The notes under the pieces were generated by a model. It had not been told where the DNA came from. It worked only from the letters and a program-made list of their open reading frames with translations, and ran no database searches. 5,647 bases of DNA from Chloroflexota bacterium (GTDB lineage: Bacteria; Chloroflexota; Ktedonobacteria; Ktedonobacterales; Ktedonobacteraceae), in assembly GCA_005881495.1 (NCBI GenBank), contig VBHI01000236.1, forward strand, positions 1 through 5,647, given 5' to 3'. The position numbers and the translations under genes were made by a program. Positions 1 to 5,647 of this stretch are shown piece by piece; the first letter of the stretch is position 1; the number at the start of each line of letters is the position of its first letter.

Positions 1-359
1 TGATGAACCTCTGGAGTTTATCGCCGAAGCTCCCCAGCGCAGGCGAGCATTACCTCCGCTATCCAATTATTGAGCGATTTCTCGCAACGCTGCAGCCAGA
101 TCAGCAGCAATGGAAGTTCGTGATACGAGACGATGAAGATGAGCAACTCCTCCGTTCGTTGCTCTGTATGTATCCAATTTTTGCAGAGCAAAAGCTTCCC
201 ATTATCCTGCAACCTGAAGGTGATACCGCGATCACAGATTATCCTGCGGCATTAGAACGCCTAGCCGAGCGCGTACACGATCCTTTTTGGAGTGACTACC
301 ATGTACGGGTCTTACCACAACTCCATGTGATTATCTGGGGAAGAAGACGATGGGTATAA
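1..359 (+). CDS. queE: 7-carboxy-7-deazaguanine synthase QueE, C-terminal part (5' end outside window)
   Basis: The gene is cut by the left edge. The first whole codon is at base 3, an ATG that is probably an internal Met, and the stop is TAA at 357-359. QueE is a radical SAM enzyme that converts 6-carboxytetrahydropterin to 7-carboxy-7-deazaguanine in the queuosine/preQ0 pathway. The visible 118 residues carry the family's central SPKL segment (LWSLSPKL, residues 3-10) and a C-terminal VLPQLHVIIWG stretch (about 103-113) like those I know from QueE proteins. The CX3CX2C cluster motif that would prove the family lies upstream, outside the window. About half of a normal 210-250 residue protein is present. 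The extreme C-terminus (RRRWV) is a little unusual. The complete queF downstream strongly supports the call. The alternative is another short radical SAM protein, which I consider unlikely. Confidence 0.8.
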   Translation, partial: MNLWSLSPKLPSAGEHYLRYPIIERFLATLQPDQQQWKFVIRDDEDEQLLRSLLCMYPIFAEQKLPIILQPEGDTAITDYPAALERLAERVHDPFWSDYHVRVLPQLHVIIWGRRRWV

Positions 360-506: not shown

Positions 507-947
507 ATGGACGAACAACAAGACCGCATCCCAGGCCGATATGGGAGAGATGAAATCGAGGAGAGTCAACTCGAAATCTGGCCCAACGCCCACCCGGAGA
601 GGGATTACGTCGTACACCTGGAGATCCCCGAATTCACCTGCCTCTGTCCCAGGTCCGGTTTCCCTGATTTTGCCACGATTACGGTCGATTACGTACCAGA
701 TCAGCAGGTCGTGGAGCTCAAGAGCCTCAAACTCTATATCAATAAATACCGCAACCGGCAAATCAGCCATGAAGCAGCCACGAACACCATCCTCAACGAC
801 CTGGTAGCGTTGCTCTACCCGCGTTGGATGCGGGTGGTCGCCGATTTCACCGTTCGGGGCAATATCAAGACGATCATCTTTGTTGAACACTCAACCCCGG
901 GATACCAGGGACCTCATCCCGAGTACCGGCGCTACTTCTCGGGATAG
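507..947 (+). CDS. queF: NADPH-dependent 7-cyano-7-deazaguanine reductase (preQ0 reductase) QueF
   Basis: QueF reduces the nitrile of preQ0 to the aminomethyl group of preQ1 in the cytoplasm, the step before insertion into tRNA on the way to queuosine. The 146-residue protein has the size of the short, unimodular (Bacillus-type) form. Family landmarks are in order. FTCLCP (43-48) has C47 as the catalytic cysteine that forms the thioimide, and PDFA (53-56) has D54 as the conserved acid. The QueF signature ELKSLKLY spans 70-77, and SHE (87-89) has H88 and E89 in substrate binding. [10 protein letters not shown] and DFTVRGNI follow as in the family. The ATG at 507 is fixed by ggagag (493-498), eight bases upstream. 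It lies 147 nt behind queE and is probably co-transcribed, because I see no convincing promoter in the gap. All key residues are intact. Confidence 0.96.
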
Positions 948-1117: not shown

Positions 1118-1651
1118 ATGCGCATACAGGAACATATAAAATTATCGGGGGTGGCGGCACTTGTTGCGCTGCCCTGGCTAAAACAAGATGTGTGGATTCC
1201 TTTCGTGGCTAGCATTGGTATCGATGTTGACCATTACCTGTGGCATGCGGTTACACACCGCACGCTGAGTTTACGGGAGGCGGTAGGCTACTTTCAGCAG
1301 GCGGATCCGCCACAATTACCGCAGCAGCGACTCTTCCACCAGCCAATTGTGCTGGGTGTGCTTCTTTTCGTTGCTGCCTGGACACGCTCAAGATTTTTGT
1401 GGCTGATCCTGGCGGGTTTTCTCTTTCATGTCAGCCTGGACGCCATTCATATAACACAAATGCGGCGTTTGAAGACGAGGCTGAGCGAGCAGGCGAGTTT
1501 TACCTGTTCTAAATGCGGCCAGCATTACGATGTCTTGCAGTTGCATACTGTTTCTGTTGCGCGCAATGTGCTTGACCGCTATAATCCTGAGCATTTTGTT
1601 GTGCTATGCCCGACCTGTCATGAAGAGGCACATTCTCATTCTCCTCTTTGA
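1118..1651 (+). CDS. Membrane protein with DUF457/YdjM-like metal-binding motifs and a C-terminal HNH-like zinc module
   Basis: This is a 177-residue protein of unknown function. The N-terminal two thirds are membrane-associated, with hydrophobic stretches at about 10-34, 76-89 and 92-107. They carry Asp/His motifs reminiscent of the DUF457/YdjM 'inner membrane metal-dependent hydrolase' group: DVDHYLWH (36-43), H74, and FHVSLDAIH (103-111). The C-terminal part looks like a small HNH endonuclease fold. It has CSKC (130-133) and LCPTCHEEAH (163-172) as zinc-binding knuckles, LQLHTV (140-145) at the usual HH position, and N156 in the usual Asn region. The second His of the catalytic pair is Thr144, so nuclease activity is doubtful and the module may be only structural or DNA-binding. 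The start is the ATG at 1118; its Shine-Dalgarno is poor, but the strong promoter at 1049-1077 sits at a suitable distance. It appears monocistronic, because secG has its own promoter just after the stop. Confidence 0.75.
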   Translation: MRIQEHIKLSGVAALVALPWLKQDVWIPFVASIGIDVDHYLWHAVTHRTLSLREAVGYFQQADPPQLPQQRLFHQPIVLGVLLFVAAWTRSRFLWLILAGFLFHVSLDAIHITQMRRLKTRLSEQASFTCSKCGQHYDVLQLHTVSVARNVLDRYNPEHFVVLCPTCHEEAHSHSPL

Positions 1652-1743: not shown

Positions 1744-1977
1744 TTGGCCCAGTGGCTTCCAGCACTCCGAGTAATACAGATCATACTCAGCATTACCGTC
1801 ATTACCTTTATCCTGTTGCAGCCTCGCGGAGCAGGATTGGGTAGCGCATTTGGCGGCAGCAGTGCCGGCTCCGTGTTTAAGACTCGACGTGGCGTAGAGA
1901 AGTTGATTTTCAATTTGACTATCGTCTTTGTGGTACTCTTCGCCCTCGTGTCTTTAATCAGTGGACTGGTTCACTAA
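1744..1977 (+). CDS. secG: Preprotein translocase subunit SecG
   Basis: SecG is the small accessory subunit of the SecYEG channel in the cytoplasmic membrane and assists SecA-driven export. The 77-residue product has the family layout. A first membrane helix (about 8-25) is followed by the conserved loop LLQPRGAGLGSAFGGSSAG (24-42) and FKTRRGVEKL (45-54), and a second membrane helix spans about 55-74. The start is TTG at 1744. It is preceded by gagga (1732-1736) at seven bases, and an in-frame stop (1714-1716) excludes a longer protein with a normal start. The rare start codon may limit its expression. It is the first gene behind the extended -10 promoter, and its last 17 bases overlap the longest reading of the next gene, so the two may be translationally coupled. 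Confidence 0.95.
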   Translation: MAQWLPALRVIQIILSITVITFILLQPRGAGLGSAFGGSSAGSVFKTRRGVEKLIFNLTIVFVVLFALVSLISGLVH

Positions 1978-2734
1978 TTCTTTTCACCTGAGACGTTTGG
2001 CTGTTGTGCCGGTACACAACAATGGTAGCGCGTGGAAGAGAGCGATGCTCTCGACTATTGCGCTTTGTTTTGTTGTGGCCTTTTTGGTGAGCTGTGATGC
2101 TTCCTCCAGCGGGGGAATTGGAGCACACCAGCTGGTGGTGCAACAGGCTCCAAAGGCGCGGCTGACTTATGTAGCCATTGGCGCCTCGGACACTTTTGGT
2201 ATCGGCGCCGAAGATCCACAGACAGAAAATTGGCCGACAAACCTGGCTGCGGCATTGGGTTCGGGCGTTCATCTTGTCAATCTGGGTATCCCAGGCATTT
2301 CACTGCACCAGGCATTGAACGTTGAAGTCCCGGTGGCGCTCGATGCTCACCCTAACCTGGTGACCGTCTGGCTGGCTGTGAACGACCTTGCCAATAATGT
2401 CCCTCTCGGTAGTTACTCGCACGACCTTGACCTCCTATTGAGTCGCATACAAGCAGGAGCGCCGCATGCACGTATTGCTGTCGCCAATGTGCCAGACCTC
2501 ACACTGTTGCCCTATTTCAGCGCGGATGATCCGCAGATGCTGTATACACAAATCCAGGCTTATAACAGCGCTATTGCGTCCATTGTAAAGCGGCACCATG
2601 CCATCCTGGTAGACCTCTACCGACAATGGCCCGAACTGCGTAACCACCCGGAGTATATCAGTAATGATGGGTTGCACCCTAGCACGCTTGGTTATACGCA
2701 GATTGCGCTGCTCTTTTACCAGGCTTTGTCGTAG
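1961..2734 (+). CDS. SGNH/GDSL-type hydrolase, predicted lipoprotein
   Basis: A serine esterase/lipase-like enzyme of the SGNH superfamily, exported and probably lipid-anchored outside the cytoplasmic membrane. Numbering from the longest start (GTG 1961, 257 residues), the hydrophobic stretch at about 29-44 ends in a lipobox, LVSC (C45). Catalytic blocks are in the usual order. Block I is GASDTFG with Ser76, block II is NLGIPG (oxyanion Gly109/112), block III is VNDL with Asn141, and block V is DGLH with Asp236 and His239. Block I has GAS in place of the classical GDS. The start is uncertain. GTG 1961 overlaps secG by 17 nt and lacks a Shine-Dalgarno. GTG 2006 or TTG 1997 would give a typical signal peptide using K26-R27. 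ATG 2045 has ggaag upstream but loses the basic residues. The natural substrate is unknown. The FtsX-type permease six bases downstream suggests a TesA-YbbAP-like partnership. Confidence 0.85.
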   Translation: MDWFTNSFHLRRLAVVPVHNNGSAWKRAMLSTIALCFVVAFLVSCDASSSGGIGAHQLVVQQAPKARLTYVAIGASDTFGIGAEDPQTENWPTNLAAALGSGVHLVNLGIPGISLHQALNVEVPVALDAHPNLVTVWLAVNDLANNVPLGSYSHDLDLLLSRIQAGAPHARIAVANVPDLTLLPYFSADDPQMLYTQIQAYNSAIASIVKRHHAILVDLYRQWPELRNHPEYISNDGLHPSTLGYTQIALLFYQALS

Positions 2735-2740
2735 GAGCAT

Positions 2741-5647
2741 ATGACACATCTCTTTGGCATTCCAATCGATACACTCACAACAGTACTCCTGGCCGCGACG
2801 CTGGCGATTATCGGCGTAGTGGCGCTGCTGGCGCTCGGCAATGCCATCTTTTTCAGGATTGGCGTACGCAATATCCCGCGGCGGCGTACACAGATGTGGT
2901 TGATTATCTTCGCGCTGATGCTCTCTACGACACTGCTCTCCAGCGTGCTGGCTACCGGAGATGTCATCACGTCCGCGGTGCAAACGGTTGCGGTTTATAA
3001 TCTGGGCAGCGTGGATGAGACGATCGAGGGTGGTCATGGAGCTTTAGGATTTTTTCCAGATGGAGTGTACTATCAAATCAATGACCTCGCTCGCCATGAT
3101 TCCGATATCGCGGCGGTGGGAGCAGCGCTGGTCGAGCACGATTTGCTCGTGGCGGATAGTACGTCGCGACAGGTGCGCTCGAAGGTCACGGCGCTCGCCA
3201 TCATTCCTGGCAGCGAACAGGGCTTTGGAGGAATGCAAAATAACAATGGCAGAGGTCATCTCACTATTACCGCGTTGGGCGCAAACGAGATCTATCTTAA
3301 CAATACTGCCGCCGTGCTGCTCAATGCTCATGCAGGTGACAACATTTTTCTCTACTCTAAACGCTGGCCTGGGCAGCGTTACCAGATGCATGTCGCGGCC
3401 ATCGTTGTGGATGGTGGACTCGTCGGCCAACGACCATATCTCCTGAGCAATATTCAATTTTTCCGCAATATCGAACAGCGCAATGATGATATTACACAAA
3501 TATTTATTGCCAACCGCGGCGGCGCCAATGGCGTCGATCTTTCGGGTCGCGTGACACAGAGCCTACGGGCGTGGATTCCAGGCGATGTGCATATCATCCA
3601 GGTAAAACAACAGGGTGTGCAAAATTCGCAGAAGGCGGAGGATATCTTCTCCCGCGTCTTTGCGCTCTTTGCTCTTTTCGCTCTGGCGATTGGCCTGCTC
3701 TTGATCTTCCTTATTTTTGTCTTATTGGCGGCAGAGCGTCGCGTAGAGATGGGCATGGCCCGGGCCATTGGCGTGCAACGCCGCCACCTGGTGCTGATGT
3801 TTCTCTTCGAGGGAACCGTCTATGATCTACTGGCCTCATTCATTGGTCTTGGCCTGGGCATCGCGCTGGGAACGTTGCTCGTGCTCTTTCTCGGGCCAAT
3901 CCTGGCGCGTTTTAACTTCCCGCTCAAACTGATTCTGCAACCGCATAGCCTGGTTATTGCCTATTGCCTGGGCGTCATCTTCACGTTCTGTTCCGTCGCG
4001 GCCTCTTCCTGGCTGGTCAGTCGCATGACAGTGGTAGAGGCCATGCGCGATCTCCCCGAACAGACGCAGAACAGGCTTTCCCTGAGTGAGACCTGCCTGC
4101 GCCTATTGAAATTGCCAGCTATGGTACGAAAGCCCTTCAAGCTGCGGCGCATTTTCCTCGAACAGATCCCTGATGCGCTGGTTGATCTACTTCGTTCACT
4201 CATCCTATTGGGCTTTTTGCCACTACTGGCCGGCTACTGGCTGATGCAACTGGGGTTGGAGAAATTGCAGATCGCATTTTTCTCGCTGGGCTTTTCATTG
4301 ATCGTTTTGGGGGGTGGGCTGCTGTTAAAAGCTGCTATTGGGCAGGTTTGGCGGGTTGTGGGATGGTTATCGCGACGTATTTCTGGTACCACGTCCAGCA
4401 CTACAGTCGAGAGAGCGACCGACGGTAATAGGGCGATCAACGGCAACCGGGCGACCATCGACCAGAGATCGACCAACGGTAATAGGGCGACCACCGACCA
4501 GAGAGCGACCACCGGCAACCGGGCGACCGTCGACCAGGGGGTGACCACCGACCAGGGAGGCAACCGGGCGACCACAAGGGATCGCCCCTACCATGGACGT
4601 GATCATAGTAGGGACGTGAACAATGCGGCTTTGAAAAAATTGTTTGTTACGTTGGCGGGGTTGGTGATTGTTGCTTATTGGGCGCTGCCGTTCGATGTCC
4701 TGGCGCGGCTTGGGCTGCCGCGTTTCCAGGGTGGCATAGAGATTTTCTTTTTTGCCGGGTTGATGATGGTTTTGGGAACGGCGTGGGTGCTGTTGACCAA
4801 CGCGGAAGTGCTGGTATGGCCGGTTGTAGCGCTCTGTTCGAATCTGCCGGGATCGTATATTCTGACACGACTGGCTTCGGCGTATCCTTTACACCGGCGC
4901 TTCCGCACGGGATTGAGCGTGGTGATGTTTAGCCTGGTTGTCTTCGCCATGACGGTTATGGCGGTGATTACGAATGCCATGCAGAACACTTATACCAATA
5001 TTGATACGCAGACAGGCGGGTATGACATCCAGGCGGTGGCATATTTCAAGCCGCTGCCAGACATACGGACGGCTTTGCTACAGCATGGCATTCATCCGGA
5101 GGTATTTTCTTCGATAGGAGTACAGACATCGGCAGCCGTGGGGGTGATCCAATTAAGTACCGATAATCCTTCCTGGAAGCTGTATCCTGCGCAAGTGGTC
5201 AATGGTGGATTTCTGCATGGTCTGGGGCTGCACCTGCTGGCACGCGCCCAGGGATTTAACAGTGATGAGGCGGTATGGCAAGCGTTACAAACCCATCCCA
5301 ATTACGCGCTGATCGATAACGATGCCCTGCCGTATCGCCCTGATAGTTTCATCAGTTCACCCGTCTATGATCCCAACGCGCCGTTACCGGCTGATGCAGG
5401 GATGCCGACCCATCCACCGGGTTTTGATTCACCTTACACCTTTTCCATGAGTGGGGTCTACCAGGGCGATACCAGTTTCCCGGCCACTCCTCTCTGGGTC
5501 ACCGGCCTCCAAACGCCCACTCCTGATAACACGGCGCCACAGGCTGTGACGTCGGCGGTCAAGCTCACTATTATCGGCGTTGTTGACAACAGTGACAGCG
5601 AACATTTTGGGCTGTTCATTCCCCGTGCCGCCTACACGGCACATAGC
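2741..5647 (+). CDS. Large FtsX/MacB-type ABC transporter permease (3' end outside window)
   Basis: An uninterrupted frame of 969 codons that is still open at the right edge. The start is the ATG at 2741, six bases after the previous stop; GGAG (2734-2737) overlaps that stop, at a short spacing of three. Membrane segments lie at about 12-36 and 52-72. An extracytoplasmic MacB-core-like domain spans about 73-300. The FtsX block follows, with helices at about 306-329, 359-384 and 403-425. Between them is the family-typical AERRVEMGMARAIGVQRRHL (331-350), and VVEAMRDLPE (431-440) closes the block. More helices follow, interrupted by a repeat-derived hydrophilic insert (558-614). A helix after RRFRT (719-723) then leads into a second extracytoplasmic domain to the edge. 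A second FtsX block is expected beyond. Such permeases need a separate ATPase, which is absent here. The family is clear. The transported substrate is not, though hydrophobic molecules or lipoproteins are typical for it. Confidence 0.9.
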   Translation, partial: MTHLFGIPIDTLTTVLLAATLAIIGVVALLALGNAIFFRIGVRNIPRRRTQMWLIIFALMLSTTLLSSVLATGDVITSAVQTVAVYNLGSVDETIEGGHGALGFFPDGVYYQINDLARHDSDIAAVGAALVEHDLLVADSTSRQVRSKVTALAIIPGSEQGFGGMQNNNGRGHLTITALGANEIYLNNTAAVLLNAHAGDNIFLYSKRWPGQRYQMHVAAIVVDGGLVGQRPYLLSNIQFFRNIEQRNDDITQIFIANRGGANGVDLSGRVTQSLRAWIPGDVHIIQVKQQGVQNSQKAEDIFSRVFALFALFALAIGLLLIFLIFVLLAAERRVEMGMARAIGVQRRHLVLMFLFEGTVYDLLASFIGLGLGIALGTLLVLFLGPILARFNFPLKLILQPHSLVIAYCLGVIFTFCSVAASSWLVSRMTVVEAMRDLPEQTQNRLSLSETCLRLLKLPAMVRKPFKLRRIFLEQIPDALVDLLRSLILLGFLPLLAGYWLMQLGLEKLQIAFFSLGFSLIVLGGGLLLKAAIGQVWRVVGWLSRRISGTTSSTTVERATDGNRAINGNRATIDQRSTNGNRATTDQRATTGNRATVDQGVTTDQGGNRATTRDRPYHGRDHSRDVNNAALKKLFVTLAGLVIVAYWALPFDVLARLGLPRFQGGIEIFFFAGLMMVLGTAWVLLTNAEVLVWPVVALCSNLPGSYILTRLASAYPLHRRFRTGLSVVMFSLVVFAMTVMAVITNAMQNTYTNIDTQTGGYDIQAVAYFKPLPDIRTALLQHGIHPEVFSSIGVQTSAAVGVIQLSTDNPSWKLYPAQVVNGGFLHGLGLHLLARAQGFNSDEAVWQALQTHPNYALIDNDALPYRPDSFISSPVYDPNAPLPADAGMPTHPPGFDSPYTFSMSGVYQGDTSFPATPLWVTGLQTPTPDNTAPQAVTSAVKLTIIGVVDNSDSEHFGLFIPRAAYTAHS
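4412..4582 (+). repeat. In-frame 18-bp minisatellite inside the permease gene
   Basis: Nine imperfect 18-bp units and one half unit run codon by codon. Full units start at 4412, 4430, 4448, 4466, 4484, 4502, 4520, 4538 and 4565, with a 9-bp remnant at 4556-4564. They encode RATDGN, RAINGN, RATIDQ, RSTNGN, RATTDQ, RATTGN, RATVDQ, GVTTDQ, (GGN) and RATTRD, which are residues 558-614 of the permease. The recurring DNA core is gggcgacc. The block lies between RVVGWLSRRISG and ALKKLF, both positively charged, so the loop is probably cytoplasmic. Length and frame fit the reading frame exactly. Confidence 0.92.
4566..4587. repeat. Short palindrome at the end of the minisatellite
   Basis: gggcgacc (4566-4573) pairs with ggatcgccc (4579-4587) around a five-base loop, with one bulged A (4581). 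It uses the last gggcgacc core of the minisatellite as its left arm, so array and palindrome look like parts of one element. Confidence 0.6.
4586..4613. repeat. Terminal palindrome next to the minisatellite
   Basis: ccctaccatg (4586-4595) pairs with catagtaggg (4604-4613) at nine of ten positions around an eight-base loop. It shares its first two bases with the preceding palindrome and contains one of two direct copies of ggacgtg (4595-4601 and 4612-4618). It lies in the coding frame of the permease (about residues 616-624). Confidence 0.6.

Follow-up and report, generated by a model that had tools for sequence, protein, structure and literature searches.

Mobile palindromes in coding DNA are already known, but cases in which they can be seen to grow into coding repeats are scarce. 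Rickettsia palindromic elements (RPEs), as the relevant part of a review relates (PMC10969869), go back to Ogata et al. (2000, 2002). The GTAG/CGTC repetitive extragenic palindromes (REPs) of Di Nocera et al. (2013; PMC3733652) have stems mostly of 6–9 bp, reaching up to 13 bp, and form dimers of opposite orientation. That paper, as far as its passages on these repeats go, places some REPs inside open reading frames (ORFs), describes clusters that code for 43–82 amino acids in Thauera and R. conorii, and reports GTAG repeats from Chloroflexi; the string ‘ktedono’ occurs 0 times in its main text. Here, we describe a stretch of 5,647 nt from a Chloroflexota bacterium (contig VBHI01000236.1 of assembly GCA_005881495.1; hereafter the window), whose nearest named relatives are Ktedonobacteria. 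In it, a tandem array of 18-bp units lies in the frame of an FtsX-family ABC permease and runs directly into a GTAG-tagged, REP-like palindrome. We consider it likely that the array is the expanded edge of this dispersed element, which would have inserted in frame in a tolerant linker of the permease, grown by slippage or unequal crossing-over and persisted as a tolerated passenger. Relatives of the permease provide a natural allele series in a near-identical protein, from an element-free relative to one, about three, 7, 8 and 15 units.

The array and the adjoining palindrome

The array comprises eight full units (Table 1) that approximate GCGACC RNC GRY MAN VGR and encode AT(x)GNR or AT(x)DQ(R/G), with variants present. 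Tandem Repeats Finder (TRF) detected periods of 18, 36 and 54 within 4412–4557, and the presence of two unit types in the permease frame, GNR and DQR/DQG, is consistent with the 36-bp higher-order period. Identity at a lag of 18 bp is 0.61 over 4412–4582, whereas dinucleotide shuffles (n = 2000) averaged 0.30 and peaked at 0.43; none of them (0/2000) reached the observed periodicity even when each shuffle was given its best lag from 6 to 54. A sequence-only reading of the window had described nine and a half 18-bp units. The in-frame array stands, but the count falls to eight full units and a 9-bp partial one, because the supposed last unit is in fact where the palindrome starts. The partial unit, GGCAACCGG, forms the junction between array and palindrome, and reads GNR or GKR ahead of the palindrome in the relatives P0001, P0003, P0008 and P0033. 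Folded as single-stranded DNA, the array yields no stable structure (z 1.35 and −0.30), and we therefore do not invoke structure for its expansion. A region search for the array peptide, which reached proteins of similar length only, returned four permeases among 22 candidates.

On its minus strand, the palindrome reads GTAG followed by GGGCGATCC-CTTGT-GGTCGCCC, which the DNA fold resolves into an 8-bp stem with a one-base bulge and a 5-nt loop; GTAG thus stands beside a stem-loop within the 6–13 bp range of REPs. The palindrome continues into an CATGGACG extension (4592–4599), which is followed by a degenerate inverted partner, CATAGTAGGGACG (4605–4617), and the DNA fold of 4560–4620 shows inverted pairing (z −1.67). 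The hairpin is open in five of the six reading frames, a property that would ease its settling in genes. An Rfam search of the window found nothing at gathering scores.

The palindrome is dispersed in related genomes. A first search of the genomes of ten relatives gave matches in three, all confined to the palindrome part of the query, and palindrome matches occur in 11 of 47 genomes of the class (E ≤ 1e-3). One genome, G048, contains five 34-bp copies that are 100% identical to 4566–4599 of the window. A pattern search allowing up to three mismatches found 98 copies in another genome, G015, and 42 in G048, distributed over many contigs, a high-copy dispersal of the kind that defines REPs; the same pattern read backwards found 0 copies in both. 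Twelve of the 42 copies in G048 form six inverted pairs of facing copies, the starts of which are 64 bp apart (three, L138, L140 and L148, were read), so that opposite-orientation dimers, a further mark of REPs, are present in G048, with a degenerate partner in the window. Seven counted stem pairs are conserved in 133–138 of 138 copies, although the search pattern itself includes the stem and this conservation is therefore not independent. Compensatory changes were considered as proof of the hairpin and dropped, as the stem is nearly invariant in the 138 copies and covariation is weak.

Allele series in close relatives

A protein search of 7998 scored candidates found 1284 relatives of the permease at E ≤ 1e-3, and the following draws on the best 120. 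Among these predicted proteins the unit number differs between close relatives, as in a variable number of tandem repeats (VNTR) within coding sequence: P0002 and P0004 have one unit each, P0003 three and a partial, P0001 seven and a partial, P0033 about eight and P0008 about 15, next to the eight and a partial of the window. Outside the loop, P0001–P0004 are 97.6–98.2% identical to the window on the N side and 98.5–98.8% on the C side, and the N sides of P0008 and P0033 are 97.6 and 98.5% identical. Loop lengths in the window, P0001–P0004, P0008 and P0033 are 114, 108, 69, 84, 69, 153 and 111 residues, respectively, differing by multiples of 3. The sequence-only reading had anticipated such in-frame changes in relatives with conserved flanks, and had proposed to look for them in orthologues. 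Both expectations hold: relatives with flanks about 98% identical differ in unit number by multiples of three residues, and the array is absent from all 11 orthologous loci found in the searched genome contigs. Its estimate of about 57 added residues becomes 54 when measured against P0005, the closest relative without the palindrome (114 versus 60).

Assembly offers one conceivable source of such a series, through repeat collapse, repeat expansion or chimeric reads, and most of the alleles do come from metagenomic collections. The units are degenerate, however, the frame is intact, and several sources carry arrays that differ in sequence, which makes an artefact extremely improbable.

In all six parsed relatives with units (P0001–P0004, P0008 and P0033), the units run into palindrome residues. 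P0005, at 86% overall identity, lacks the palindrome yet has TTNGNR at the position of the first unit. This comparison suggests that the 18-bp unit may be built of host codons joined to a REP arm.

One-sided tails at unrelated sites

The core of the unit, GGGCGACC, is also repeated on one side of the hairpin at unrelated sites in other genomes, in steps of 21 bp in G015, 16 bp at locus L012 and 14 bp at G048:C792. Our survey covered 61 loci in G015 and 35 in G048; duplicates were removed, as were copies whose flank on one side or the other was shorter than 60 bp. In G015 this left 67 copies, namely all 62 exact matches and five of the 36 copies carrying 1–3 mismatches, so degenerate copies are under-sampled. 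A further GGGCGACC, with at most one mismatch, lies within 60 bp on the core side in 41 of the 67 G015 copies (22 instances at 21-bp spacing and 10 at 42 bp). The opposite side has such a core in 10 of 67 copies, with seven instances 60 bp away, as in tandem copies of the whole element; flanks that had been shuffled gave 6.7. The corresponding counts in G048 are 5 of 32 and 2 of 32, with 0.9 in shuffles. Tails thus occur often in G015 and seldom in G048.

These sites bear on whether the array is a self-standing minisatellite, as the sequence-only reading took it to be. An ordinary in-gene minisatellite would have arisen by slippage of host codons, with the REP-like element adjoining by coincidence; it would account for the NGNR of the first unit, which P0005 has without a palindrome, and for an 18-bp step unlike the 21-bp tails common in G015. 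We nevertheless regard it as unlikely, given that the unit core is the palindrome’s own arm, that the units reach palindrome residues in the six parsed relatives and that elsewhere, at unrelated sites in other genomes, such cores likewise lie directly against this palindrome.

A broader possibility, which we raise tentatively and think somewhat doubtful, is that some Ktedonobacteria carry ‘tailed’ REPs, in which a GTAG hairpin bears one-sided, step-regular units of half a hairpin made by the element’s own replication or mobilization and not by chance slippage. With steps of 18 or 21 bp, these elements could take hold within genes, where disordered loops of several protein families at once would become linkers of variable length. 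The 21-bp step, commonest in one genome, corresponds to about two helical turns; elsewhere the step is 14, 16 or 18 bp. If the tails are indeed made by the element, they could help to trace a new mobiliser in Chloroflexota.

The permease loop

The permease is read incompletely, as the window stops before the protein’s end; its relatives P0001–P0007 are 1,028–1,154 amino acids long. It has a single match to FtsX (PF02687, E 2e-15, residues 309–430) and weak matches to the solved structures 5xu1_M and 5gko_A (MacB). Hydropathy and basic residues predict that residues 530–635 are cytoplasmic and lie between two membrane helices, in agreement with the earlier placement of the array between membrane segments and flanked by basic residues. 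An AlphaFold model built from a 59-sequence alignment assigns a predicted local distance difference test score (pLDDT) below 50 to residues 549–624, with mean values of 27–36 over 551–620, and shows no secondary structure between helices 511–548 and 622–648; the model is weak overall (mean pLDDT 60.8, predicted template modelling score (pTM) 0.40). From anchor to anchor, the loop measures 30–153 residues in 121 aligned sequences, 32 being the commonest length (28/121). Between a pair of outer anchors, the interval is 145 residues in the window, 46–71 in nine loci, and 107 and 109 in the loci L001 and L002.

The long loops of L001 and L002 contain inserts that are themselves dispersed. The L001 insert matches 13 places in G001, 16 in G002 and 52 in G048, and the L002 insert 37, 20 and at least 60 places in the same genomes; these counts include self matches, and those for G001 and G048, where 40 candidates were scored, may be low. 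Both inserts bear an GTAGGGGCG head, in opposite orientations. The L002 insert belongs to another dispersed family, about 50 bp long, that carries this head. Sequence comparison thus places dispersed elements in this permease loop in at least three lineages, which suggests that protein linkers can serve as landing sites. From the orientations, the different inner sequence and the lack of palindrome residues in P0005 and P0007, we infer that the elements arrived separately; loss from a common ancestor may be an alternative. P0006 compared with P0007 resembles a further case of loop insertion, at the protein level. At L002, the permease of a metagenome-assembled genome is split over two frames (L002:2843-6142), perhaps through assembly error or decay.

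The sequence-only reading had left the array as either a length-variable linker or a neutral passenger. A linker that is selected and length-tuned, in which the unit number alters transporter coupling in the manner of a contingency locus, would be compatible with the multiple-of-three steps, with the spread from 1 to about 15 units among close relatives and with the long loops of several lineages. We find it very unlikely, since the commonest loop has 32 residues, the stretch is predicted, albeit by a weak model, to be disordered, and the element also occurs in unrelated proteins and at many sites without a supported gene across it. The modelled disorder of residues 551–620 fits a neutral passenger best, and the linker is most likely a tolerated passenger rather than a domesticated domain. 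‘Domesticated’, the earlier term, requires a function, and nothing here shows one.

In-frame copies in other genes

Among 36 sampled element loci (21 in G015 and 15 in G048), eight have a frame that stays open for at least 60 residues beyond the element on both sides, four of them with Pfam support. The proteins concerned are listed in Table 1; the one at L040 we take to be NadB-like. The insertion in the VWA protein is clean, spanning 46 residues where a relative at 85% identity has 27 and 110 of 121 aligned rows have 25–27. The NadB-like linker has 92 residues, compared with 64–72 in 19 of 19 relatives. The DUF2298 loop has 100, compared with 37–87 in 11 of 19 relatives (the other eight, which gave no frame with the motif, were dropped), although this loop varies in length among relatives regardless. 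In-frame insertion into unrelated genes and absence from orthologues, the pattern of RPEs, were therefore found for the permease, the VWA protein, the NadB-like protein and the DUF2298 protein.

Three of these loci show further features. At L154 in G048 (34–2523), one 830-aa frame encodes Aminotran_3 and Peptidase_M20 domains separated by a REP and its degenerate inverted partner; the REP may fuse two neighbouring genes, or may merely appear to do so if the second gene starts downstream. The minus-strand frame of 817 aa at L094 in G015 has two VGRTFLSA peptides in the DUF2298 loop, ahead of the array. This peptide seems to be encoded by a further dispersed repeat, GGCGGACATTCCTG lying near another G015 copy (L155). 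The VWA loop of P0123, a relative at 82% identity, contains the peptide GQPQGIAP, which an GGGCAACC variant of the hairpin would encode, and this loop may have been hit twice.

Proposed origin of the array

We propose the following course of events. A dispersed, GTAG-tagged REP-like element, probably represented by the remnant of a tail-to-tail dimer (4566–4617), would have landed in frame in the cytoplasmic linker, and would have survived there because the loop is disordered. Its outer arm, GGGCGACC, would then have formed a direct repeat with a GCGACC in adjoining permease codons 18 bp away, and slippage or unequal crossing-over could have multiplied the 18-bp segment, comprising the host codons NGNR and the REP arm. 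As each unit spans six whole codons and lies in a disordered loop, alleles of 1 to about 15 units would persist.

Several observations weigh against this account. No mobiliser was found: Y1_Tnp has 35 matches, with at least one in each of 8 of 8 genomes, and at the 30 loci examined, up to 1.5 kb on each side, the hairpin (≤5 substitutions) was present in 0 of 30. The octamer GTAGGGGC occurs at two of these loci (L113 and L118). Dispersal was counted in genomes other than the window’s own. The alleles are predicted proteins, mostly metagenomic, with intact frames only, and repeat numbers can be wrong in short-read assemblies; two of the proteins, P0008 and P0033, are partial, with C sides 92.0 and 96.3% identical to the window. 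One-unit alleles are just 9 residues longer than P0005 (69 versus 60), whereas a clean gain of 4566–4616 would predict 17 codons; host residues must then have been lost, or else P0005 itself arose by a deletion. Tails are rare (5/32) in G048, the genome with the palindromes most like that of the window, and their step varies, from 18 bp in the window to most often 21 in G015, 16 at L012 and 14 at G048:C792. The exact pattern of tail and hairpin occurs in 1 of 400 sampled genomes of the phylum, which makes the exact tailed form rare or limited to a lineage. Finally, a bare triple-core pattern is present in 3 of 47 class genomes, but its backwards control is present in 2 of 47 (G020 and G026), a scrambled core in 1 of 47 (G028) and the backwards control of that core in G027; as controls also matched, the bare pattern is not decisive, and the abutting hairpin is what counts.

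Gene neighbourhood

The permease is preceded by the genes listed in Table 1. The 177-aa ORF has two CxxC motifs in its C-terminal part. A GDSL-like frame also lies upstream of the permease at L002, with 204 aa compared with 257 in the window.

Table 1 Features of the window and in-frame element copies at other loci
Feature	Position or locus	Strand	Basis or remark
Frame without Pfam match	3–359		
QueF-like gene	507–947	+	Pfam search
177-aa ORF	1118–1651	+	No Pfam family above cut-off
SecG	1744–1977	+	
GDSL hydrolase frame	1961–2734	+	Pfam search
FtsX-family ABC permease	2741–5647	+	Open frame of 969 aa, continues past the window’s end
Hypervariable linker, residues 530–635	4328–4645	+	Hydropathy, pLDDT, loop lengths
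Eight 18-bp tandem units	4415–4558	+	TRF, unit parse, shuffle test
9-bp partial unit GGCAACCGG, array–palindrome junction	4559–4567	+	
REP-like palindrome, 26 bp	4566–4591	−	DNA fold z −2.7; dispersed copies
Probable remainder of tail-to-tail dimer	4592–4617	+	Matches, inverted pairs, fold
VWA protein	L041		In-frame element copy
DUF2298 membrane protein	L094		In-frame element copy
Protein with FAD_binding_2 and Succ_DH_flav_C domains	L040		In-frame element copy
Frame joining Aminotran_3 and Peptidase_M20 domains across REP	L154		

Comparison with known systems

Our searches of open-licence PMC papers returned no description of a tandem tail that derives from a palindrome arm and forms a series of alleles within a single gene, and no paper on such tails in Ktedonobacteria. 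Described systems share other features with the element. PARCEL presumably stands for palindromic amphipathic repeat coding sequence. Judged by the title of the paper (PMC2996958) and compared by description alone, these resemble the present element as palindromic coding repeats spread among diverse microbes.

RPEs, as the review portrays them (PMC10969869), are similar in that palindromes are spread over the genome and stand in frame in genes for unrelated proteins. They measure about 150 bp, compared with a hairpin of 26 bp in Ktedonobacteria, and differ from the element described here, which has a tandem tail whose unit number varies among close relatives; the likeness is drawn from description and we claim no homology. 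The systems of REPs, or of their composite arrangements, the bacterial interspersed mosaic elements (BIMEs), with RAYT (TnpA-REP), to the extent that PMC8266576 describes them, share with the element the GTAG beside a hairpin, a bulged stem, seen in E. coli, and the composite arrangement. They differ in that we found no Y1 transposase gene beside the element (30 loci), and the RAYT link of the classical GTAG REPs was accordingly set aside after testing. With the GTAG REPs in the corresponding passages of PMC3733652, the window element shares the GTAG tag, the stem size, the dimers and the intragenic copies. The clusters described there consist of whole REPs or dimers, whereas the repeated coding unit in the permease is one palindrome arm with a spacer, in numbers that vary between alleles. 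In-frame palindromic elements are thus known from Rickettsia and from intragenic REPs, and the part that appears new is the arm-derived tandem tail with its allele series.

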